This document shows positions 31,423-55,834 of a stretch of 63,169 nt of DNA, piece by piece. The position numbers and the translations under genes were made by a program. The stretch spans positions 1 through 63,169 of the forward strand of contig CANGPO010000002.1 in assembly GCA_947455705.1 (NCBI GenBank), written 5' to 3'. Source of the stretch: Actinomycetota bacterium. Its GTDB lineage: Bacteria > Actinomycetota > Actinomycetes > S36-B12 > CAIYMF01. Within the stretch, counting starts at the first letter, position 1, and the number at the start of each line of letters is the position of its first letter. The notes under the pieces are model-generated. The model was not told where the DNA came from. It saw only the letters and a list, made by a program, of their open reading frames with translations, and did not search any database.

Positions 31423-32739
31423 TCAGTGATCTGCCTGCCGCGCAGGGCGGGGGGCGACTGGGGCGCCGCCGAAGCCATCAGAGCCTCCGGTATCGAGCAA
31501 CCGCGCCGACTGAACTGCCCCCTTACCGAACCGAGCGCTAGCCTTATCGACTGCCTGTTCTGCCTCACGCCACCCAACCTCAGGCTCATCAAGGAACATG
31601 TATCGCGGGGAATCCTGCGCAGCTGTGAGCCCCTCAGCCCGAACTCCGACCAGACGGATGCGGGCCCGCTGCAACCCCAGCGCATCGTAAAGATCACGAG
31701 CAGTTGAGTACACCTCGCGAGAAATGTCTGTGCCAGATCGAAGCGTTCGCGATCGGGAGATTGTGGTGAAGTCAGCAAATCGCACCTTGAGCACAATGGT
31801 GCGCGACACAAAGCCCTGGTGGCGCAAGCGAGCGGCAACCCGCTCCGAGAGCCGAAGAATCTCGCGATGAATCACCTCGGGATCATCGATATCACGCGGG
31901 AAGGTCTCTTCGGCCCCGATGCTCTTCTCCCCTTCGGGCACCACCACGGAGCGTGGATCTCTCCCCCAAGCCAATTCATAAAGATGTGTTCCTGCAGCCT
32001 GGCCAACGGCACGAATCAACGTATCAACGGGTGTATGGGCGATATCACCAACAGTGGTAAGCCCGAGGCGAATGAGCGCCTCCTCAGTTTTATCCCCTAC
32101 TCCCCATAGGGATCCCACCGGAAGCGGATGCAGAAACGCAATGACGCGATCTGCTGGCACGACGAGCCGTCCGTCTGGTTTGGCGCGGGTGGATGCGAGT
32201 TTGGCAACGAACTTTGTTGGCGCCACTCCAACCGTGCACGTGATGCCCTGCTCATCAACGACTCGGGCTCGAATCATGTCGGCAATATCAACCGGCGGAC
32301 CAAGCCGACGGATTGCACCAGAGACATCAAGGAATGCCTCATCAAGGCTCAGCGGCTCAACGTGAGGCGTGACATCACGGAAGATCGCCATGACACCTGC
32401 AGATACTTCGGTGTAGAGCGCAAAGTTTGGGGGCAGCACGATGACCGCAGGGCATAGCCGCTTAGCCCGAGACATGGGCATGGCTGAGTGAATGCCATAG
32501 CGACGTGCCTCATAGGTAGCTGCGGTAACGACCCCACGTGAACCATCACCACCAACGATGACGGGTTTACCCACTAAGTCTGGACGCGAACGCAACTCAC
32601 ATGATGCGTAGAAGGCATCCATATCAACATGCAGAATGTGACAGCCGTCGTCCTCACGCACTCCACCATCACCGGGGTCAGCGGTGGAGACATCGGCCTG
32701 CGTAAGGCGGGCTCCCCTGGTGATCTGGCTGCGGCTCAC
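31423..32739 (-). CDS. dinB: DNA polymerase IV (Y-family, catalytically intact)
   Basis: The 438-residue Y-family polymerase carries out translesion synthesis. Catalytic carboxylates are present: HVDMDAFYASCE (about residues 38-49) and PLSLDEAFLDVSG (about 128-140). The thumb (GVGDKTEEALIRLG) and little-finger domain (KSIGAEETFPRD...) follow. The C-terminus is a Pro/Ala extension without an evident beta-clamp motif beyond the usual region. It lies 36 bp after dnaE2 in the same orientation, so it is probably part of the SOS operon. The intact active site separates it from ImuB. GTG start at 32739; no strong Shine-Dalgarno is visible. Confidence 0.95.
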   Translation of the reverse strand: MSRSQITRGARLTQADVSTADPGDGGVREDDGCHILHVDMDAFYASCELRSRPDLVGKPVIVGGDGSRGVVTAATYEARRYGIHSAMPMSRAKRLCPAVIVLPPNFALYTEVSAGVMAIFRDVTPHVEPLSLDEAFLDVSGAIRRLGPPVDIADMIRARVVDEQGITCTVGVAPTKFVAKLASTRAKPDGRLVVPADRVIAFLHPLPVGSLWGVGDKTEEALIRLGLTTVGDIAHTPVDTLIRAVGQAAGTHLYELAWGRDPRSVVVPEGEKSIGAEETFPRDIDDPEVIHREILRLSERVAARLRHQGFVSRTIVLKVRFADFTTISRSRTLRSGTDISREVYSTARDLYDALGLQRARIRLVGVRAEGLTAAQDSPRYMFLDEPEVGWREAEQAVDKASARFGKGAVQSARLLDTGGSDGFGGAPVAPRPARQADH

Positions 32740-32775: not shown

Positions 32776-35700
32776 TCACCACCCCGAACTTCCGTTACTG
32801 CTATGCCATAACTTGCGCGGAGTGGGGCGGTCGGAGTCCTTAGGTGTGGTCGGACCGCTCTGATCACCGTCCGCACCTGAGACTGATCCTGGTCGTCCAC
32901 CGCGCGCCGCCGCCTGGCTGCGAGTATCAGCAGCAGCGATCCCCTGCGGCGCAATATCAGCATAGGGTGATTGCCGAAATCCGCTGGCATGAATGAGTAC
33001 TCGACGTAACCGCTCCCCTCGTTCATGCGGACTTTCCTGCTGCGGTGGGGATGCGGCCACAGGACGAGTGGATCGGCTACCGGCCCGACCTTCAACGGCT
33101 GCGTCATCAGAATCTGCTGATGTACCAAGACCGGAATCTAGAAGTTCTGCAACGGCCGCTTTACCACCTGATTTCCACGCCTCGTAAACCACTCCGAGCT
33201 CCCAAGCCCCAGTTGCTCTAATGGAAATCCCACGTGGCCCCGTTCGTCGTGTGACACCCCGAACGAGTAAAAGCCACGAACCGAAGACCGTGGCCGCGTA
33301 GGGCCCCTGAACATCTTCAAAAAAGGTCGCATCAACCGGACCCGTTGAATCATCGAGGGTAAGAAAGACCACTCGGCGACCAGATCGAACAGGTGGGGTT
33401 TGGGTTGCGACTTTCACTCCAGCAACAAGCACTTCGGTCGTTGAACGACGACTAAGTAGGTCGCGTGAGGGGGTAACGCCGAGATCGTTAAGCATGGGTG
33501 CGTAAAAATCGACGACATGGCGACTTGCATCGAGCCCCAAGATTTCAAGCTCAGCGCGAACCCGTTCTGCATCACTCATTTCAGGAAGCCCGCTGGCGGC
33601 AATGTCACCCGGTGCATCACCAAGTTCGAGGGTGAGTTGCACATCCAATTCCGACGCTTGAATCGCTGCCATCGGCGCTTGGCTCTGTCGACGTGAGGCC
33701 GCAACAACATCCCCTACTCCCGTAGATACCCCCGTGCCATCAACACGAACAGCCACACCATGAGATGGCTCACCTAATGAATAGGTACGTCGCTTCGGTG
33801 TCGCCGCTCGGGCCGCCTTACGTGCCGCTCTGCTATATCGATCGAGATCGGCGATCTGCAACAGCAGGTCGCGACGGGTGACTCGACCACGTCGACGCAC
33901 CGGGGCCGATAACCCAATGCCATAGACCGAATCGAAACCACCCGCGAGCACTAAGCGCTCAACAATCGGACGTGACACTGATGCCCGAGTCCAGAAATCT
34001 GATAGGGATTGATAGGGCCGGCTAGCCACAATCCGTTCAATCTCAGCAGCACTGATTCCTTTGACATCAGCCAGTGACAACCGAATCCCATAAGCCGAGC
34101 CATCAGGGAGACCCGGTACATCTACCGGCCGACGTGGCCGCTCGCCCAAGATTTCAGGTGGTGGCTCGTCATAGGGAGAAACCCGTTCAACTCGATAGGT
34201 CTTATCTGAGGTATTCACATCGAGTCCAAGGATGGCGATACCCAGATTGCGTGCCTCATCAAGGATGAGTCGCTTGGGATACATCCCCGGATCATGGGTG
34301 AGTACACCAGCAAGGAAGGCTGCCGGGTGGTGTGCTTTCAACCACGCCGAGTGATACGTCGGGATAGCAAATGCAGCCGCATGAGCCTTACAGAAACCAA
34401 ATGATGCAAAGGCCTTGAGCACTTCCCATACGCGCTCAATCGTGACGAGGTCATATCCCTTATCCCGAGCAGAAGGATAGAACCATGCACGCACCTCCTG
34501 CTGCGACTCAGGAGAACCAAGACTTCGCCTAATCTCATCCGCCTCAGCTAATGAACAACCCGTCATAATCGACACGATCTTCATGACCTGCTCATGAAAG
34601 ACAACCACTCCATAGGTCTCTTCAAGTGCTGGTCGTAGATCGGGATGTAGATACTCCGCCTCGTTCCATCCTTGGCGAGCCCGCAGGAATGGAGTGATCA
34701 TGTCGGACTTCACCGGGCCAGGGCGAAAGAGCGAAATATCGGTGATCAGATCATCAAACCGATCCGGCGCAAACTTACCGATGAGTTCACGTTGACCTGG
34801 GGATTCGATCTGGAAGCAGCCAAGAGTGTGTGCGGATTTCACTAAGTCATAGGTGGGCTCATCATCAAGCCCGACTCCGTCGAGATCGATCTGCACTCCA
34901 TCAACTCGAGCAACTTCATCAATGGCATAGGCCATCGATGACTGCATTCGGATGCCGAGAACATCGAGTTTAAGTAAGCCCAGCTCTTCAACATCGTCTT
35001 TATCGAATTGGCTCATCGGGAATCCCCGCCAACTTGCTTCAACTGAGGTGCGATCTAACAGCGTGACATCGGACAGCACCACCCCACAGGGGTGTAATGC
35101 GATGTGTCGCGGCAAGCCATCAAGGGCTTGCACAAGTGACAGGAAGCCATCAAGTTCACCGCGAGCTGCCAACTTGCCAAGACCCGAGGATCGAAGTTCA
35201 GGAAGCTCTGCCAGCGCATTACGAGCGTCCCGAGCCCTGATATGCGGAAAAGCCGTTGCAAATGCATCGATCTCACCGCGCGGCATTCCTAGGGCTGCAC
35301 CCACATCGCGAACGGCATGGCGCACGCGATAGGTGTCGCGCATCGAAATACAGACACATCGCTCACCACCGAATCGGTTAAGCATCTGCTCGTACACCTC
35401 GGTGCGACGTGCAGATTCAACATCGATATCAATATCGGGCAGGGCTCGACGAAGTGGGGATAGGAACCGCTCCATGACGAGCCCGTGAGCTAATGGATCG
35501 ACTGCGGAGATTCCGAGCATGTGATTAACCAAACTGCCCGCACCTGAACCACGGGCAGCAACCCTGACATTCATCCCCTTGATCAGATCTACAACCTCAG
35601 CAACGGTGAGGAAATATCCCGCAAAACCAAGGGTTGAGATCGTGGAAAGCTCATCGTCAAGACGATCCCGAGCAGATGTTTCGCGATGTCCGGTACGGAT

Positions 35701-37020
35701 CAGATAGTCATTGAAGACTCCCTCACATCGTTGACGTAAATATCGATCCGCCGCATGTGCTTGCGCAGCAAGTGCCTTCGGGCCACGATCACGCTGCACA
35801 GACGTGCGTTGTGCGTAGCGAGCCGGCACGATGAGATCAAGCTCAGGGACATGTACCTCACCAATCCCGAGATCAGTCACTGGATCAAGCTGGCAGGCCC
35901 GGGCAAGTTGGCGAGTGTCGGCAAGTAACCGATCAACTTCACGTCCCGCTCTACCTTCATCTCTGGCTAGCCCCGACAGATGGACGATCTCGGTCGCCAA
36001 CTCGCGCATATGCGCACCAGATGCCAGATGGCCTTCACCATTGGCTCGGTCGAGGTGCCGTGAATCCAATGGGACAAGGCGACGAATCGCATCAAGCACA
36101 TCAATAACCGGAGCTTGGTCACGCTCTGCATGACGAACTGCTGCAGCCAAGATCGCCGGGGTCTGCTGTTCTCTGGCGAAACTCAGCATCCGCGCGGCTG
36201 CAGCCGACGAATAGGGCAATCCACGCACGGCTGCCCCAGAAATATCGGTAACAGCTAGGGCAGAATCACGGGCGCGATGACTGACGATCTCGATTGCTAG
36301 TCGTCGACCAAATACCTCACGCCAGAACCCCAAGGCGGCAAGCCCTTGATCAGGTCGTCGACGCATGATGGCTCGACCAACATCTGATTCAGGCCCAAGT
36401 AATGCCACTAAGCCCTCGGAATGCTGGGCTATGAGCTCAAGGGATGCCACCGGTGATCCACGTCGCCCTTGGGCTGCAACCATCGGAGCATCATCGCCAT
36501 GAAATTCGCGATGCATCGACTCACGTGTTCTGAGTTGCTGTGAGTTCTCGATGCTGAGATCTGATTCAAGTCCTAGATGAGCCGCCGAAACGAGTCGACA
36601 TAGTGATGCCCAACCGCGTTGCCCACGAGCAAGAAGTACAACTCGACTGTGTCGCTGATCTATCTCACGTCCCCCACGTGCAGGAGTCCGGCGGATATTC
36701 GTCCGCTCAGCCAGGGTTGGACCCTGCCCAACCCTGCCCGCCGAGGTGCGCTGCACCCGCGATCCGAGGGCGGCTCCACTCGCGCCCTGAGGCGTCGGGG
36801 AGGTGTAAGCCAGATCAACACCCACGATGGGAGCAATACCCGCATCACGACAGGCCAGTACGAATCGCACTGCACCATAAAGACCATCGCGATCGGTAAG
36901 TGCGAGTGAATCTTGGCCAAGGGCCGCAGCACGCGCCACGAGAGCAGCCGGACTACTGGCCCCGTGACGAAGTGAGTAACCCGAGGCCACATGGAGATGG
37001 ACAAAGGAATCTTCAGGCAT
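32776..37020 (-). CDS. dnaE2: Error-prone DNA polymerase III alpha subunit DnaE2 (ImuC)
   Basis: The 1414-residue C-family polymerase carries out damage-induced mutagenesis. The PHP domain starts FVHLHVASGYSLRHGASSP. The catalytic Asp pair is in PDIDIDVESARR and the third in LLKLDVLGIRMQ. A helix-hairpin-helix region follows, then an OB domain (VLVAGVKVATQTPPVRSG...VTFFEDVQ-like segment) and a C-terminal RKLWHSSNGSSGW. DnaE2 proteins are usually about 1050-1150 residues, so this one is long: extra sequence sits inside the PHP region (about residues 75-190) and after the OB fold (about 1260-1400, Ser/Arg-rich). It starts 15 bp after the HEPN gene. The Shine-Dalgarno is weak (GAG), suggesting coupling. 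Confidence 0.94.
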   Translation of the reverse strand: MPEDSFVHLHVASGYSLRHGASSPAALVARAAALGQDSLALTDRDGLYGAVRFVLACRDAGIAPIVGVDLAYTSPTPQGASGAALGSRVQRTSAGRVGQGPTLAERTNIRRTPARGGREIDQRHSRVVLLARGQRGWASLCRLVSAAHLGLESDLSIENSQQLRTRESMHREFHGDDAPMVAAQGRRGSPVASLELIAQHSEGLVALLGPESDVGRAIMRRRPDQGLAALGFWREVFGRRLAIEIVSHRARDSALAVTDISGAAVRGLPYSSAAAARMLSFAREQQTPAILAAAVRHAERDQAPVIDVLDAIRRLVPLDSRHLDRANGEGHLASGAHMRELATEIVHLSGLARDEGRAGREVDRLLADTRQLARACQLDPVTDLGIGEVHVPELDLIVPARYAQRTSVQRDRGPKALAAQAHAADRYLRQRCEGVFNDYLIRTGHRETSARDRLDDELSTISTLGFAGYFLTVAEVVDLIKGMNVRVAARGSGAGSLVNHMLGISAVDPLAHGLVMERFLSPLRRALPDIDIDVESARRTEVYEQMLNRFGGERCVCISMRDTYRVRHAVRDVGAALGMPRGEIDAFATAFPHIRARDARNALAELPELRSSGLGKLAARGELDGFLSLVQALDGLPRHIALHPCGVVLSDVTLLDRTSVEASWRGFPMSQFDKDDVEELGLLKLDVLGIRMQSSMAYAIDEVARVDGVQIDLDGVGLDDEPTYDLVKSAHTLGCFQIESPGQRELIGKFAPDRFDDLITDISLFRPGPVKSDMITPFLRARQGWNEAEYLHPDLRPALEETYGVVVFHEQVMKIVSIMTGCSLAEADEIRRSLGSPESQQEVRAWFYPSARDKGYDLVTIERVWEVLKAFASFGFCKAHAAAFAIPTYHSAWLKAHHPAAFLAGVLTHDPGMYPKRLILDEARNLGIAILGLDVNTSDKTYRVERVSPYDEPPPEILGERPRRPVDVPGLPDGSAYGIRLSLADVKGISAAEIERIVASRPYQSLSDFWTRASVSRPIVERLVLAGGFDSVYGIGLSAPVRRRGRVTRRDLLLQIADLDRYSRAARKAARAATPKRRTYSLGEPSHGVAVRVDGTGVSTGVGDVVAASRRQSQAPMAAIQASELDVQLTLELGDAPGDIAASGLPEMSDAERVRAELEILGLDASRHVVDFYAPMLNDLGVTPSRDLLSRRSTTEVLVAGVKVATQTPPVRSGRRVVFLTLDDSTGPVDATFFEDVQGPYAATVFGSWLLLVRGVTRRTGPRGISIRATGAWELGVVYEAWKSGGKAAVAELLDSGLGTSADSDDAAVEGRAGSRSTRPVAASPPQQESPHERGERLRRVLIHASGFRQSPYADIAPQGIAAADTRSQAAARGGRPGSVSGADGDQSGPTTPKDSDRPTPRKLWHSSNGSSGW

Positions 37021-37035
37021 CAGAACTCATGTCGA

Positions 37036-37578
37036 TCACGATTCACGGGTAGGTGGTACCGGCATCACCATCGTGAGCTCACTTAATAGCGGTTGGTGAA
37101 TAGCACCCAACTGACGAGCCACTAGGCCAAGGAATTGCTCGACCTCACGAACCAGATCATCAGCTTCCCGGGCAGTAACGACCCCGCGTAAACCAGCCTC
37201 GGCCGCGGCGCGCTTACTGGCTCCTGCAGCAAAAAACGCTGCCCACTCAGAAAATTCTGGTGCGATATCAGCAAGTAGTACCCATGCACTGCGAACCCGT
37301 GAGCCTCGGCGGCTTCGTGGACGTGCACGTGTTGCCAGAACTGCAGCCGCGGCACGTAGGGCCGCTAGATGCGCATGCGCATATCGTGACTCGCTCTCCT
37401 GAGCTACTCCGGCTGCAAGAAGTTCGCGTGCAGCACCGGCGAGTAAGTCACGACTCTGCGGCGTAGCACTCCCTACCGCACCATGGGTTGGTTGTGCACC
37501 TAGTTCAGACTCGTTTAATGAGTTGGTATCAAGGGAAAGCTGGAGTGCGGTAGCTGGATTCATTGATGTGACAGTCAT
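37036..37578 (-). CDS. SAV_6107-type HEPN domain protein
   Basis: The 180-residue protein matches the actinobacterial SAV_6107 HEPN family: RYAHAHLAALRAAAAVLATRARP, RSAWVLLADIAPEFSEWAAFFAAGASKRAAAEAG, then VTAREADDLVREVEQFLGLVARQLG. It is predicted to be an all-helical bundle. Start at the ATG at 37578, with AAAGGAGG 5 nt upstream. A R-x4-H pattern (RYAHAH) is present but lies in the first helix, not where the RNase-type HEPN motif normally lies, so catalysis is doubtful. The gene sits between DUF6504 and dnaE2 downstream of a LexA box, which points to a role in the translesion-synthesis operon. Confidence 0.85.
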   Translation of the reverse strand: MTVTSMNPATALQLSLDTNSLNESELGAQPTHGAVGSATPQSRDLLAGAARELLAAGVAQESESRYAHAHLAALRAAAAVLATRARPRSRRGSRVRSAWVLLADIAPEFSEWAAFFAAGASKRAAAEAGLRGVVTAREADDLVREVEQFLGLVARQLGAIHQPLLSELTMVMPVPPTRES

Positions 37579-37666
37579 AACGACCTCCTTTACTCGACCC
37601 AATGGGTCAATCAACCTACGAAGACGTACCAGGACGTATGCGCAACTAAGCGCGGTGATTAATTCG

Positions 37667-38107
37667 TTAGTCCAGTGCTCGAGCGAGCCGCCACTGACCG
37701 TGTACAAGCTCTGCGACATCAGCACGGTGAACATCACATGCCACGTCATAGACCCCGATGGGTGCAGATGAACCAGCTGCAGCTTCTACTCGCCACACCC
37801 ACCGTTCCGTAGCTCCGACATCTCGAGTAATGGAACGTTCGTCAACGGCCTGATCTACGTGCCGCCCAGGCACTACAGGTGACTTCATTGAGCGATGAAG
37901 TGACGTCCACCAGGTACCCGACTCAACCCAGTGAGCTAAGACAGCGCGTACGACGTAGATGCGGCTGCGCCATAGGAACTGGTTGCCGACGGCAACCCCA
38001 CCTAAGAACTGGTTGCCGACGGCAACCCCACCCGCAGGACCAGCACCCAAAGAACCAGATCCCGAAGAACCAGAGCGGATGGAAATAACTTCGCCATAGG
38101 TGCGCAT
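37667..38107 (-). CDS. DUF6504 family protein
   Basis: The 146-residue protein has the DUF6504 pattern: FLWRSRIYVVRAVLAHWVESGTWW, then ERWVWRVEAAAG, VGVYDVACD and WRLARALD. The family occurs next to Y-family polymerase/DnaE2 genes in actinobacteria; its biochemical role is unknown. The ATG at 38107 has GAGGAAGG upstream and matches the family N-terminus (MRTYGEVISIR). A duplicated decapeptide GGVAVGNQFL (two 30-bp DNA repeats) precedes the core. It is the first confident gene downstream of the LexA box at 38391-38406. Confidence 0.85.
   Translation of the reverse strand: MRTYGEVISIRSGSSGSGSLGAGPAGGVAVGNQFLGGVAVGNQFLWRSRIYVVRAVLAHWVESGTWWTSLHRSMKSPVVPGRHVDQAVDERSITRDVGATERWVWRVEAAAGSSAPIGVYDVACDVHRADVAELVHGQWRLARALD
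37975..38032. repeat. Two 30-bp direct repeats, each containing a perfect palindrome
   Basis: Copies at 37975-38002 and 38005-38032 share GAACTGGTTGCCGACGGCAA and following bases. Each includes GGTTGCCGACGGCAACC (37981-37997 and 38011-38027), an 8-bp inverted repeat around a single A. They lie in frame in the DUF6504 gene and duplicate ten residues. Confidence 0.92.
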
Positions 38108-38513: not shown

Positions 38514-40865
38514 CTACAGATCGCCCAACACGTCTAGCAACCCGGTGGTATCACGGATTGTCTTGCGATTAACGGACACAACCAGCCCACCGTCGGCACG
38601 CTCTTTGACCTGACCAAGCGATACGAGGTTATCGATTGCAGCATCCACCTGTTCGTCTGGGAACTCAGTGATCTTGGCCGCAAGCTCCGCCCTCGTCGGA
38701 TACTCCAACCGCAGGATCGACGACAAAACCCGACGTTCAGTTGGATCCGCATCGAGCAATCCGAGCAGGCCTGCGGACCATGATTCTGCACTCAATGCTC
38801 TCACCGTCGTCTCTTCAACCGCGCGAATCGTATGGGAGTTGATTCCCCCCGACTCGCTGAGGTCTCCACAGAAATTACCCGGACCAATCTCAGCTATCCG
38901 TCGATCGTGACCTGATTCGCTCGTCGCGAAGATTTCTACACGCCCACTAACCACGTACATAACCCGATCAATACGCGACCCCGACCGCACCAAGATGTCA
39001 CCTGGACTGAAGTGCTCACTAAACAGTCGCGACTGTAGCCGCTCACGCTGTGATTCGGGGAAGGTCGCAAGGATCCGGCCATCAATAACACTTGGCAGGT
39101 GCCGCTGCCAGACTTGGGCGTAGTCCTCACGCGCCATAAGTTCGCCGTGTTTACCTGTCATCAGATCCCTACCGACCATGGCCAGCACATGATCTGCCAA
39201 GGATGCGACCTCTTCGTTCATCGTCGACAACACAACAGTTCGCTTCACATCATGTCTCAACGCAGCAATGAGTGGGCCGGCTGCGTCAGCATCGGAAAAC
39301 AGCGAAATATCCTGAATCACAACCACATCTGTTGCGCTCAGACATGCCATCGCGATCATTAACCGTTGGCGTTCATGAACACTCAGCAATTCAGCGTGGG
39401 TACCAAGTGATGCGTCGACACCACCGTGGTTCAATGACGTCAGGTGAGCTAGGCCGACTCGTTCCAAGGTCGCATCGATCTCCGCATCCGATAAGTCGGC
39501 GCGAGCTGAGACAAGGTGTTCTCGGACGCTCGCATCCATCAGATAGGGCTCGTCCGCGATCAAGGTGAGACGACGGCGGATGGTTGGGTAGCGCACATCC
39601 ATCCCATCCAGCAGTACGCAGCCCGCGTCCGGATCTCGGTCGCCGGCAAGAACCTCCGCTAGGGCATCGGGTGAACTACCGCGGTCCCCCGCCAACACAA
39701 CGAGCCCACCAAGTGGAAGCTCAACGTCACCAACCGCGAGAGGGCTATCCGGTGACAGCGCAACATCTCGCAGAACAAGCGTGCCCGCTACGGACGAGCC
39801 AAGCTCCCCGCTAGGTCGATGTACTCGTCGAGGTGAGTTGACGATCTGCTCGATGCGTCGCTTACTTGTGACGGCCAGTCGGAACTCTCGAATCCAAGGC
39901 GGTAGAGCTTCCAAGCCACTGACGACAAACTCGATGTAGAGCAGGGCAGGTGCAATTGCGGCGGCACTATCGCTTCCGCCGACTACCGCTATACACACCA
40001 CGACAAAAAGTGCGAGATAGCCGGTGAAGCGCGCCGCAGTAAGAAGACGATTAATCTGCGTATGTTGGTGATGGGTTGCGATGCGCAAATGCTCGGCACG
40101 GGTGAAGAACCGCGACTCCATCCAAGCGCCAAGATTCATGCCCGTCACATTGCGACCCGCCGTGATGGCCTCATCCACCATGGCGCCGACATCAGCTGAC
40201 GCATCCAAGCGATGCCGGTCGCGCTCGAAAATCACGTTACCGATGGCTCGGTTGACAACCAAGAACAAGAGGACCGCCGCCGTCGTCACTACTCCGACTG
40301 GCAATTCGATGTACAGCAGAAGCAGGAGACTCAGGGTGATGCCAACGATGGCTGGCAAACCTTCCACAACGGTTGCATCCATCGCCACTTCAATGCGATC
40401 GACATCGGCAGTGTGACGGTCGATGACGCTGGGCCGGCGCAAGAACTTCTGCCGAAGCACCGGTGATTCCAATGTTGACTCGAACACCGATGCGCTGATG
40501 TCACGACTTACTTCAGTGACGAAATCGTGGGTTACCCGCCGAGAAAGCATGGCCCCGATGACCGCGATTGCCACGAGACCCGCGATGGAGCCAATTGCTT
40601 CAAAGCTCGAAATCTCGGCGTGTACCGCTTCCTGCGAAGACTCGGCGCCATGCTCCCCTGCAGCCAAGATCGCATGAATCCGAAGCGGAATGTAGAGGCC
40701 GGCCAGTAGTGCCGTCAGACCCAAAGCCAACGCAAGAATGACCTTGGCTTTAACGGGTTCAAGGAACGGGCGCAAAAAGCCATACAGCTCGCGTACGGCC
40801 GAAATGCGGCTCATCTGACCCACAGGAGGATGCTCGACGGTCGGGATGACCCCAGACTCATCCAT
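38514..40865 (-). CDS. ABC-exporter-like protein with degenerate ATPase and fused cyclic-nucleotide-binding-like domain
   Basis: The 783-residue protein has, in order, a type IV ABC-exporter membrane domain (about residues 20-345, several long hydrophobic helices), an ABC ATPase-like domain (about 360-580), a Crp-type cyclic-nucleotide-binding fold (about 610-715; FSPGDILVRSGSRIDRVMYVVSGRVEIF), and a C-terminal winged-helix-like segment (TRAELAAKITEFPDEQVDAAIDNL). The ATPase motifs have decayed: Walker A reads GDRGSSPDA with no Lys or Ser/Thr, the signature is LSVHE, Walker B is VVVIQDIS without the DE pair, and the switch His is replaced in LSTMNEE. The Arg of the phosphate-binding cassette is also missing (GINSHTIRA). 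It is therefore probably a sensor or scaffold rather than a pump. The start is uncertain (40904 or 40955 also possible). Confidence 0.8.
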   Translation of the reverse strand: MDESGVIPTVEHPPVGQMSRISAVRELYGFLRPFLEPVKAKVILALALGLTALLAGLYIPLRIHAILAAGEHGAESSQEAVHAEISSFEAIGSIAGLVAIAVIGAMLSRRVTHDFVTEVSRDISASVFESTLESPVLRQKFLRRPSVIDRHTADVDRIEVAMDATVVEGLPAIVGITLSLLLLLYIELPVGVVTTAAVLLFLVVNRAIGNVIFERDRHRLDASADVGAMVDEAITAGRNVTGMNLGAWMESRFFTRAEHLRIATHHQHTQINRLLTAARFTGYLALFVVVCIAVVGGSDSAAAIAPALLYIEFVVSGLEALPPWIREFRLAVTSKRRIEQIVNSPRRVHRPSGELGSSVAGTLVLRDVALSPDSPLAVGDVELPLGGLVVLAGDRGSSPDALAEVLAGDRDPDAGCVLLDGMDVRYPTIRRRLTLIADEPYLMDASVREHLVSARADLSDAEIDATLERVGLAHLTSLNHGGVDASLGTHAELLSVHERQRLMIAMACLSATDVVVIQDISLFSDADAAGPLIAALRHDVKRTVVLSTMNEEVASLADHVLAMVGRDLMTGKHGELMAREDYAQVWQRHLPSVIDGRILATFPESQRERLQSRLFSEHFSPGDILVRSGSRIDRVMYVVSGRVEIFATSESGHDRRIAEIGPGNFCGDLSESGGINSHTIRAVEETTVRALSAESWSAGLLGLLDADPTERRVLSSILRLEYPTRAELAAKITEFPDEQVDAAIDNLVSLGQVKERADGGLVVSVNRKTIRDTTGLLDVLGDL

Positions 40866-41106
40866 ATCCGTTCGCTCTCCCCTGACAGACCCTGTTCGCT
40901 CCATGCGCCCCATCGTAGGTGGTTCGCCACGATTCACAACGCTGAGCCAGCACAACTCGGCCGAACCGTCGGCCGAACCTTGAGCGCAGGTTTAGGTGGC
41001 GGCGAGGCTGAAGTAGATCCGATCACGTACAAATAGAGCGAGAAATGTGTGACGCTGTCACCCATTCGATTGTTGATCACCCTAGAGCGGTTGGAGGTGC
41101 GCGCAG

Positions 41107-42555
41107 GTGGCACTACCAGAAATACCTTCGCGCTGGTCCTCGCTAAGCGTTCGACTAGCTCTCCTTATTGCCGGATTACTTGCGCTGAGCGCACTCGTGA
41201 CAACCGCTTACTCAGCTAGTACCGCTCACCGCGCAGCCTCCGATAACTCCCAACAGGCCATGCAAAAGGCACTGGAATCAACCACCCTGCTGGTTCACCA
41301 GTCCAACGATCAAGAACAGACTTTTCGATCGACCGCGCTGTCTGATCGAGCTGCTCAGTTGAAGAACATCGCTCAACCCATCATCGAAACGCTCAATGAA
41401 CTGAACGCTGAGGTCGAAGCCGGTCAGCTCACCAAGGCGCAGGCTCAGGCAACCGCCGAACGGGTGATCAGATCTGTTCGGTACGGAAACAACGACTACT
41501 TCTTTGCATTCGATCCAGCCGGATTAGCTGTCGCCCACGCCAACCCGAAGTTCGATGGTAAGAACCTGATCGACGTGAAAGATGCAGACGGAAACTTCGT
41601 CATTCGCCAACTCATCCACTTGGCCCAAACGAAGGGCTCAGGTTACTTGCAATACAAATGGCCTCGGCTCAACGCAACGGCAGCATCACCTGGTCTCAGC
41701 GCAATGCCCTCCGGCGGTTTTTCCGCACCCAAACTTTCCTACGTCTATCAATTCGCTCCATGGGACTGGACGATCGGTACGGGGGTCTACCTCGACGACA
41801 TCGATGCAACCGTTGCCGCGATGCGAGCCAAGGATGCAGAGAGTTTGTCCCAATCGTTTGCGAATCTGAATATCGCCGATCGAGGGCTGATCTTCGTGTT
41901 GGACAAAGGTGGCAAGGTTGCCATCGCACCCAGTAACCGAGATCTGACAGCACTCGGCACAACGCAGTGGGGAAAGAAATTCGAAAAAATCGCACTGTCC
42001 AACGCACCAACCTCTGACGGACCCATCAATCACATCGACCTCACTACGAACCTGTCGGGTGACCCAGAGTCCTGGCAATTGGACATTGCTTCGATTCCCG
42101 ATCGCGATTGGACACTCGTAACTGCAATACCGGACGCGGAGATCAATGCTCCAGGTAACGCTTTGGCGCTCAAGCAAGCCATCTTGAGTTTGTTGGTTCT
42201 CGCCCTCGGTATCGGAATCGGATTGCTGACCAGCCGACGAATCGTCCGCCCTGTCGAACAACTCACCGCGGCAGCCAGAGACCTCCAAGATCAAAGGTTT
42301 GATCCGACGAGTCTGGATGAGGTTGCGGCTCGCACCGATGAGGTCGGAGTTCTGGCACAAACCTTCCAGCGCATGGGTTCAGACTTAGTCGAACGCGAAC
42401 GCAAGTTGCGTGACCAGGTACGAAAGCTGACCGTCATGATCGATCACGACAAGGTTCAGGAAGAAGCCAGCGCAATCACCGACACTGACTACTTCAAGGA
42501 TCTAGCGCAGCGCGCCCAAGAAATGCGCACGCGGAATACTGAAGCGAAGATTTAG
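41107..42555 (+). CDS. Cache-HAMP membrane sensor without output domain
   Basis: The 482-residue protein has an N-terminal transmembrane helix (about residues 16-36), a periplasmic Cache-type sensor with YGNNDYFFAFDPAGLAVAHAN and YQFAPWDWTIGTGVYLDDID plus a second, similar module (GLIFVLDKGGKVAIAPSN...WTLVTAIPDAEI), a second transmembrane helix (about 353-371), and HAMP (RRIVRPVEQLTAAARDL). The C-terminal coil ends DTDYFKDLAQRAQEMRTRN. No kinase, cyclase, GGDEF or methyl-accepting domain follows. Similar 'ITxTDYF' coils are seen in HAMP-cyclase-type sensors (family recollection). GTG start with GGAGGT about 8 nt upstream. Divergent from the cyclic-nucleotide-domain protein at 38514-40865. Confidence 0.85.
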   Translation: MALPEIPSRWSSLSVRLALLIAGLLALSALVTTAYSASTAHRAASDNSQQAMQKALESTTLLVHQSNDQEQTFRSTALSDRAAQLKNIAQPIIETLNELNAEVEAGQLTKAQAQATAERVIRSVRYGNNDYFFAFDPAGLAVAHANPKFDGKNLIDVKDADGNFVIRQLIHLAQTKGSGYLQYKWPRLNATAASPGLSAMPSGGFSAPKLSYVYQFAPWDWTIGTGVYLDDIDATVAAMRAKDAESLSQSFANLNIADRGLIFVLDKGGKVAIAPSNRDLTALGTTQWGKKFEKIALSNAPTSDGPINHIDLTTNLSGDPESWQLDIASIPDRDWTLVTAIPDAEINAPGNALALKQAILSLLVLALGIGIGLLTSRRIVRPVEQLTAAARDLQDQRFDPTSLDEVAARTDEVGVLAQTFQRMGSDLVERERKLRDQVRKLTVMIDHDKVQEEASAITDTDYFKDLAQRAQEMRTRNTEAKI

Positions 42556-54181: not shown

Positions 54182-54256
54182 TCGAATGTGGGTTACCTAG
54201 ACGTGAATCACCGGTTGATCATGGCGTTTTCGGCGTGATCAGAGTCCGAACACTTG

Positions 54257-54262
54257 TATCCT
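54257..54262 (+). promoter_or_regulatory. mptB: TATCCT -10 element, leaderless start of mptB
   Basis: TATCCT-TTCCAC-GTG places transcription start at the GTG at 54269. No Shine-Dalgarno is present. Confidence 0.55.
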
Positions 54263-54268
54263 TTCCAC

Positions 54269-55834
54269 GTGGCTTCCGTTGATCCTGTCGGAGGCGAGTA
54301 CGACGATTCGGATTCCCACCTAGCGTTCACCATTCGGTACGCAGTCCCTGGCTTGATCGCAACGAGTGTGCTTGCACTCGGCGCACTCGGGGTGGGTTGG
54401 CTCCCGATCTACGGACTCGTCGACGTTCCGTTCGTGCACACTCTGCGCACGACGGATATCGGCATGTTTCTGTCACGTGTCTCAGTAATTCTGGGCGGTG
54501 CGCTCCTGCTGCAGGCCTGGCTGGTGGCCGGGGCCGACGTGATGTCCGGTCACATTCGGGACGTACGTCGCCTTTGGACCGTCTTGGCAATCTGGATAGC
54601 CCCGCTGGTACTGGCACCACCGCTGTTTAGTCGCGATGTCTACTCCTATTACGCCCAGGGCAAGCTCGTTCTGAAGGGGGTTGATCCGTACACCAACGGT
54701 GTCGACTCAATCCCCGGTTGGTTTCGAGATGGCGTCGATCCCATGTGGAGCCAAGTTCCCACGCCGTACGGTCCGGCATTCTTAGGAATCTCCCGGGCCA
54801 TCGCACAAGTGATTGCCGATCCGTTCGTCGCGGCTATCGCCTTTCGCTTGGTGGCCATTGCCGGTGTCGCACTGCTGGCCTACTACGTGCCTCGACTCGC
54901 TTTCTTACATGGCATCGATGCGCCCAAGGCTTTGTGGCTAGGGGTCATGAACCCGCTCATCCTGATGAACTTTGTAGCTAGTTCGCATAACGATGCATTA
55001 ATGATGGGGCTGATTGCAGCCGGACTCTGTCTGGCGATGGAAGGCTCCATGATCTACGGCATCGTCCTTGTGACAGCCGGTGCCATGGTGAAGCCCATTG
55101 GTTTGCTGGCACTACCGTTCGTGGGATTGATCTGGGCCGGAGCGCGCAGTAGTCGCAAAGAACGTTTCACCTCATGGGCCAAAACGTTTGGCGTGGCAGG
55201 CTTCACGTTCGTCGCGACCTCAGCCATCGTTGGAGTCAATTTCGGTTGGGTACATGCCCTGACGACACCAGGCAGTGTGCGCACCTGGCTTTCGCCGTCG
55301 ACTGCACTCGGCATGGCATCGGCAAATGTGCTCAATTGGTTTGGCCTGGGCGATCACGTCGAGCTCACGGTGTCTGTCTTTCGCATCCTGTTCGAAATTG
55401 CCGCGATCGTGATCATCGCCCGGCTCATCTTCAAGCCGGATGGCAGAACGGCACTGCGCGGTCTGATTCTGGCATTTGCCGCTGTTGTTGCACTCGGTCC
55501 GGTCATTCAGCCGTGGTACCTGCTGTGGGCACTCCCACTGGCCGCGGCGGCCGGGCTCAGCGCCAAGGAATTGCGCACGGTTCTGGTCTTGATCGCAGGT
55601 TTTACCCTCTACGGACTCTGTGGCTCCAGTGCAACCTCTGACAGCTTGGTTGAACTTTCCGATGGTCTTGCCGCACTTGCCGCGTTCGGTGCAGTCCTAC
55701 TAGCCGTCTCTGTCTCACCCCGGGAACGCGCCCTCTTCTTCGGTGAACCCGCCTCACACGGTTTGATGCCAGAGGATCGACCATCCATAGCGCGTCACGA
55801 CCAACTGATCATCGGCGGCCCGCTGGCTCAGTGA
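54269..55834 (+). CDS. mptB: Polyprenol-phosphomannose-dependent alpha-1,6-mannosyltransferase (MptB-like)
   Basis: The 521-residue GT-C membrane glycosyltransferase has about twelve transmembrane helices. The first large loop holds SRDVYSYYAQGKLVLKGVDPYTNGV, the acidic motif and surrounding residues typical of MptA/MptB. NFVASSHNDALMMGLIAAGL and GAMVKPIGLLALPF follow, and LGPVIQPWYLLWALPLA lies near the C-terminus. Homologues build the mannan core of lipomannan or lipoarabinomannan-type glycolipids outside the membrane. Start chosen at GTG 54269 (leaderless); a TTG at 54254 would add five residues. Its location inside the carotenoid region may be incidental. Confidence 0.85.
   Translation: MASVDPVGGEYDDSDSHLAFTIRYAVPGLIATSVLALGALGVGWLPIYGLVDVPFVHTLRTTDIGMFLSRVSVILGGALLLQAWLVAGADVMSGHIRDVRRLWTVLAIWIAPLVLAPPLFSRDVYSYYAQGKLVLKGVDPYTNGVDSIPGWFRDGVDPMWSQVPTPYGPAFLGISRAIAQVIADPFVAAIAFRLVAIAGVALLAYYVPRLAFLHGIDAPKALWLGVMNPLILMNFVASSHNDALMMGLIAAGLCLAMEGSMIYGIVLVTAGAMVKPIGLLALPFVGLIWAGARSSRKERFTSWAKTFGVAGFTFVATSAIVGVNFGWVHALTTPGSVRTWLSPSTALGMASANVLNWFGLGDHVELTVSVFRILFEIAAIVIIARLIFKPDGRTALRGLILAFAAVVALGPVIQPWYLLWALPLAAAAGLSAKELRTVLVLIAGFTLYGLCGSSATSDSLVELSDGLAALAAFGAVLLAVSVSPRERALFFGEPASHGLMPEDRPSIARHDQLIIGGPLAQ

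Follow-up and report, generated by a model that had tools for sequence, protein, structure and literature searches.

An ABC exporter-fold clade without ATPase motifs, carrying a Crp-like tail and recurring beside MinD-like and Cache/HAMP genes

The 63,169 nucleotides of Actinomycetota DNA analysed here (the window) encode a 783-residue protein in which an ABC exporter fold that has lost its ATPase motifs is continued by a Crp-like tail (hereafter the pseudo-ABC protein; Table 1). Upstream, the open frame runs on as far as a TTG at 40955, and a start near 40865 agrees with the closest orthologue, which is 90% identical and was the only match in a scan of genome contigs, in the uncultured-bacterium bin Umea2p1_bin-0293. 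Pfam matched cNMP_binding to residues 617-696 of the protein, ABC_tran weakly to residues 381-516, and ABC_membrane to residues 93-294, the last just under the gathering score. Neither this protein nor its Cache/HAMP neighbour matched an anti-phage defence model in PADLOC. The presence of a mur/ftsZ cell-division cluster in the window indicates that the locus belongs to the core chromosome. The window also contains a PASTA-kinase neighbour; a SAV_6107-like HEPN protein (37036-37749, minus strand) directly upstream of a DnaE-type polymerase (32776-37020, minus strand), with a DNA polymerase IV homologue (31423-32739, minus strand) on the same strand as both; and a 526-residue open frame (54254-55834) with no Pfam match at 1e-5. 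The HEPN and PASTA-kinase neighbours by themselves suggest an actinobacterial source.

Table 1. Positions of the pseudo-ABC gene, its parts and its divergent neighbour in the window.
Feature	Position	Strand	Evidence
Pseudo-ABC exporter with Crp-like tail, whole gene	38514..40865	-	783 aa; translation, Pfam, model, fold match
Exporter membrane domain, six helices, residues 20-342	39840..40808	-	Model helices; ABC_membrane 6.6e-6, below gathering score
Pseudo nucleotide-binding domain, residues 361-588	39102..39785	-	ABC_tran 1.4e-7; exporter fold match through residue 591
Lost Walker A site, GDRGSSPDA	39663..39689	-	Lys in 0/38 of family, 8/8 intact controls
Degenerate signature site, LSVHE	39372..39386	-	Leu and following Gln-Arg kept; two Gly replaced
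Lost Walker B site, VVVIQDIS	39303..39326	-	Asp in 0/38 of family, 8/8 intact controls
Crp-type cyclic-nucleotide-binding fold with altered phosphate cassette, residues 604-700	38766..39056	-	cNMP_binding 5e-14; CRP fold match; Glu to Asp, Arg to Asn
Winged helix with acidic recognition helix, residues 706-765	38571..38750	-	Model helices and strands; helix net charge
Cache/HAMP membrane protein, 482 aa, without catalytic domain; divergent neighbour, module partner	41107..42555	+	Pfam dCache_2 2.5e-40, HAMP 1e-9; same cluster beside relatives
Conserved 50-residue tail of the Cache/HAMP protein	42394..42543	+	Tail profile E 1.8e-25

An AlphaFold2 model built from 35 family members predicted six long transmembrane helices and a nucleotide-binding domain (NBD) fold, followed by a beta-roll and then a winged helix (mean pLDDT 74, pTM 0.53). 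Within it, residues 21-591 aligned end to end with type IV ABC exporters of known structure (VIA Z reaching 27, although the whole-chain rmsd was high), and the C-terminal 195 residues, folded alone, matched CRP (Foldseek E 2e-11). Hence the predicted protein has both the six-helix membrane domain and NBD fold of an active type IV exporter, as in MsbA, TM287/288, TmrAB, MsRv1273c/72c and CydDC, and the beta-roll followed by a winged helix of a Crp/Fnr regulator, as the initial annotation had proposed from the letters alone. It differs from these exporters in having lost all nucleotide-contacting motifs and in the added tail, and from Crp/Fnr regulators in its altered cassette, acidic helix and attachment to a membrane domain.

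The loss of the motifs was read from columns of an alignment of the window protein, 37 relatives and eight intact exporters. The three strings quoted in the initial annotation for the lost Walker A, signature and Walker B are present in the translation and fall in the corresponding columns. Relative to the intact exporters, the window protein has Pro for the Walker A Lys and Asp for the Ser/Thr, Asp for the Q-loop Gln, Val and His for the two signature Gly, Gln for the Walker B Asp, Asp for the catalytic Glu, and Met for the switch His. Among the 38 members of the family, none has the Walker A Lys or the Walker B Asp, while a Glu at the catalytic column and the switch His each occur in one member; the eight controls all retain the Walker A Lys and Ser/Thr, the Walker B Asp and the switch His. 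The replacements recur, with Pro for the Walker A Lys in 19/38, Asp for the Ser/Thr in 26/38, Gly for the Walker B Asp in 29/38 and Arg for the switch His in 23/38, and almost all members retain the signature Leu, the Gln-Arg following it and the D-loop Asp; structural residues are preserved. Because the replacements follow a pattern, the loss resembles an established condition of the whole family more than it does drift. These substitutions strongly imply that the pseudo-ABC protein cannot use ATP at its own sites.

The family comprises approximately 40 full-length relatives spread over several genera and families and extending beyond the class. It is present in 35 of the 166 genomes of the order, many of the genomes searched being incomplete and fragmented, and a class-wide search also found it in another family (f10). 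The phylum sample added a member in genome G362 (E 1e-274) and a distant one in G431 (E 7e-86, 25% identity), both without the motifs. A plasmid search with the whole protein returned no match at 1e-15. In a maximum-likelihood tree, 18 pseudo-ABC members lay on one side of a branch from 12 intact exporters (99/90; 100% of 200 bootstrap trees), the intact controls being few and three end branches, including that of the G431 member, being long. The membrane domain is conserved together with the rest of the protein, and dN/dS in three pairs of relatives was 0.07-0.13 overall and 0.08-0.11 in the pseudo-NBD, indicating that purifying selection acts on both the pseudo-NBD and the whole gene. The co-loss of ATPase motifs, which the initial annotation proposed to test in homologues, thus extends to a whole conserved clade.

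A C-terminal profile searched against 297 genomes of the class gave strong matches only to the pseudo-ABC family and did not find the same C-terminus on an intact exporter, the next listed matches resembling free-standing Crp-type proteins in size and score. One protein, in genome G809 (contig C75, locus L149), has the same order of exporter and cyclic-nucleotide-binding (CNB) domains; it differs in its intact ATPase motifs, its canonical FGE cassette and the absence of a matching winged helix. In the tree it was placed among the intact exporters and not as sister to the pseudo-ABC clade, hence the two CNB fusions look independent. In the phosphate cassette of the family's own tail, Asp stands for Glu in 37/38 members and the phosphate Arg is kept in 33/38. 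The window copy has both Asp for the Glu and Asn for the Arg, bearing out the earlier description of the cassette as atypical; lacking the canonical form, this copy is less likely to bind cAMP in the canonical manner.

The family also has recurring neighbours. In stretches fetched around 23 loci, with genes called by a simple script, a protein with the same conserved 50-residue tail as the Cache/HAMP neighbour was found in 16, a MinD/ParA-like ATPase with an FRGGTGKSN P-loop in 14, a multi-pass protein of approximately 480-510 residues (c3) in 9, and a protein of approximately 235 residues without a Pfam match (c4) in 9. At least one of these module genes lay near the pseudo-ABC gene in 19/23 loci, and none in the other 4/23. 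The three tail proteins scanned with Pfam had Cache/HAMP or HAMP domains and no catalytic domain. In G362 the tail stands on a PAS-domain-like protein, as read by eye (locus L145, 7732-8718), indicating that sensors of more than one type share this tail. In the window genome (G000), the module has its main copy on another contig (C38, locus L146, 7358-12323), where the MinD-like ATPase, a HAMP-tail protein, c4, a 298-residue gene that looks unrelated, and c3 form one row on one strand, from which the pseudo-ABC gene is absent. Far outside the class, all four module genes are near the pseudo-ABC gene of G431.

This association extends to the genomes in which the genes occur. Across the 166 genomes of the order, 32 had both the family and the MinD-like gene, three the family only, nine the MinD-like gene only, and 122 neither (Fisher p 1e-22); this value and the counts of loci and genomes ignore kinship between genomes. 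The nine indicate that the module can work without the pseudo-ABC protein. The tail was present in 18/18 genomes with the family and 0/7 without it, the seven having been picked by hand. G000, G362 and G431, all of which have the family, carry the MinD-like gene in the phylum sample, as does G584. Outside the phylum, MinD-like proteins 52-57% identical are encoded on plasmids of Nostoc, Pseudanabaena, Kovacikia, Rhizobium and Deinococcus; among the plasmid loci opened, tail proteins lay near the MinD-like gene in Nostoc (C057), Deinococcus and Rhizobium, and the pseudo-ABC protein was absent from every one. On the plasmid of Deinococcus sp. KNUC1210 (L158, 10253-16348), the MinD-like gene is accompanied by two proteins with the tail, another MinD-like frame and one resembling c3, and the cluster adjoins an annotated SpoIIE phosphatase.

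Taken together, the predicted fold match, the motif loss, the purifying selection, the single clade, the recurring neighbours and the shared occurrence point, with moderate confidence, to a type IV exporter fold that has given up nucleotide binding and hydrolysis and probably serves, anchored in the membrane, for signalling or as a scaffold within a module of Cache/HAMP-tail proteins and a MinD/ParA-like ATPase. Neither shared neighbourhood nor shared occurrence shows contact between the pseudo-ABC protein and the products of the module. The original suggestion of a ligand sensor or signalling scaffold is thus backed in its sensory or scaffolding part by the recurring Cache/HAMP and MinD-like genes, and weakened as far as it implied canonical cAMP binding or DNA binding. 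Hence the initial annotation was supported only in part, and neither the gene module nor a second paralogue entered its account.

The conserved membrane domain would also fit a channel or transporter subunit. A channel or facilitator working without ATP, formed by the exporter transmembrane bundle and gated when the Crp-like domain binds its ligand, would make use of both this conserved domain and the attached ligand-binding beta-roll fold, and CFTR is a familiar case of an exporter fold turned channel. However, the neighbourhood holds no substrate or transport genes, the recurring neighbours being sensors and the MinD-like ATPase, and the cassette is altered in the window copy, leaving a channel rather unlikely.

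It is more doubtful still that the protein is the degenerate half of a heterodimeric exporter with an intact partner encoded elsewhere, its Crp-like tail regulating transport. There is ample precedent for exporters in which one site has degenerated, solved structures of several such exporters rank among the best fold matches, and the window genome carries other, intact exporters that could serve as partners. Yet degenerate halves normally still bind ATP and complete one site with their Walker A or signature, as in TM287/288 and TmrAB, where a degenerate motif in one exporter half leaves one site competent. In the pseudo-ABC family both contributions are gone, neither half-site keeping the Walker A Lys or Walker B Asp and the switch His surviving in one member only, in accordance with the earlier remark that this is not one-site degeneration. 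The proposed search for a catalytic partner found no linked intact ABC exporter recurring beside the pseudo-ABC gene in approximately 20 loci. Instead, the window genome has a second pseudo-ABC member, split over two contig ends (C3 9-809 and C116 1-423) such that its NBD is unreadable; its equivalent in G007, with flanks that correspond on either side, is whole and is likewise without the motifs. In genomes with two members readable through the NBD, both are pseudo, meaning any dimer within the clade would be pseudo-pseudo.

A membrane-bound transcription factor, in which the transmembrane bundle senses and the tail binds DNA, is marginally less plausible again. The C-terminus follows the CRP order of beta-roll then winged helix. 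However, the recognition helix is net negative in 38/38 members (mean -3.3), against about +1 in Crp-type controls (19 rows from the class, picked by pattern, of which L099 is a spurious frame and L114 is negative), and the RETV motif present in nearly all of these controls is missing in the family. An acidic recognition helix in all members is indirect evidence that DNA binding is unlikely, and protein-protein contact the more likely role. Finally, a single decayed and functionless gene, which the loss of every ATPase motif in one gene could suggest, is ruled out by the open frames of approximately 40 relatives, dN/dS of about 0.1, the shared replacements and their position in one clade.

If the pseudo-ABC protein is a signalling or scaffold protein, its action could be envisaged as follows. 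It would dimerise through the transmembrane bundle, with another copy of itself or with its own pseudo-paralogue, as the fold suggests. Either this bundle would sense a ligand or the state of the membrane, or a partner from the module would bind, and the coupling helices and pseudo-NBDs would move in response. The pseudo-NBDs may then relay this movement to the Crp-like tail, which, given its acidic recognition helix, would serve as a ligand-tuned platform for protein interactions and not as a DNA binder. Any ATP-driven step would come from the MinD-like ATPase, as its neighbourhood and shared occurrence suggest. Tentatively, a nucleotide-free receptor or scaffold clade and Cache/HAMP-tail sensors might together control the MinD-like ATPase, forming an undescribed sensory or spatial-organisation system; if so, its MinD-like and tail parts would extend to cyanobacteria and Deinococcus.

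The use of an exporter architecture in a non-pumping role has parallels in SUR of KATP channels and in CFTR. Both still bind nucleotide and have one functional site or more, whereas in the pseudo-ABC family both half-sites are gone. A search of the open-access literature for ABC-CNB fusions, pseudo-ABC exporters and MinD-like/HAMP modules returned nothing relevant, a result that says little about novelty. Degeneration of ABC sites is frequent; what stands out here is a conserved clade that lacks both half-sites, with the fold nonetheless under purifying selection. Should its members signal, they would constitute a clean natural test of what the exporter fold can do without ATP, and would offer a way into the study of the widespread MinD-Cache/HAMP module.
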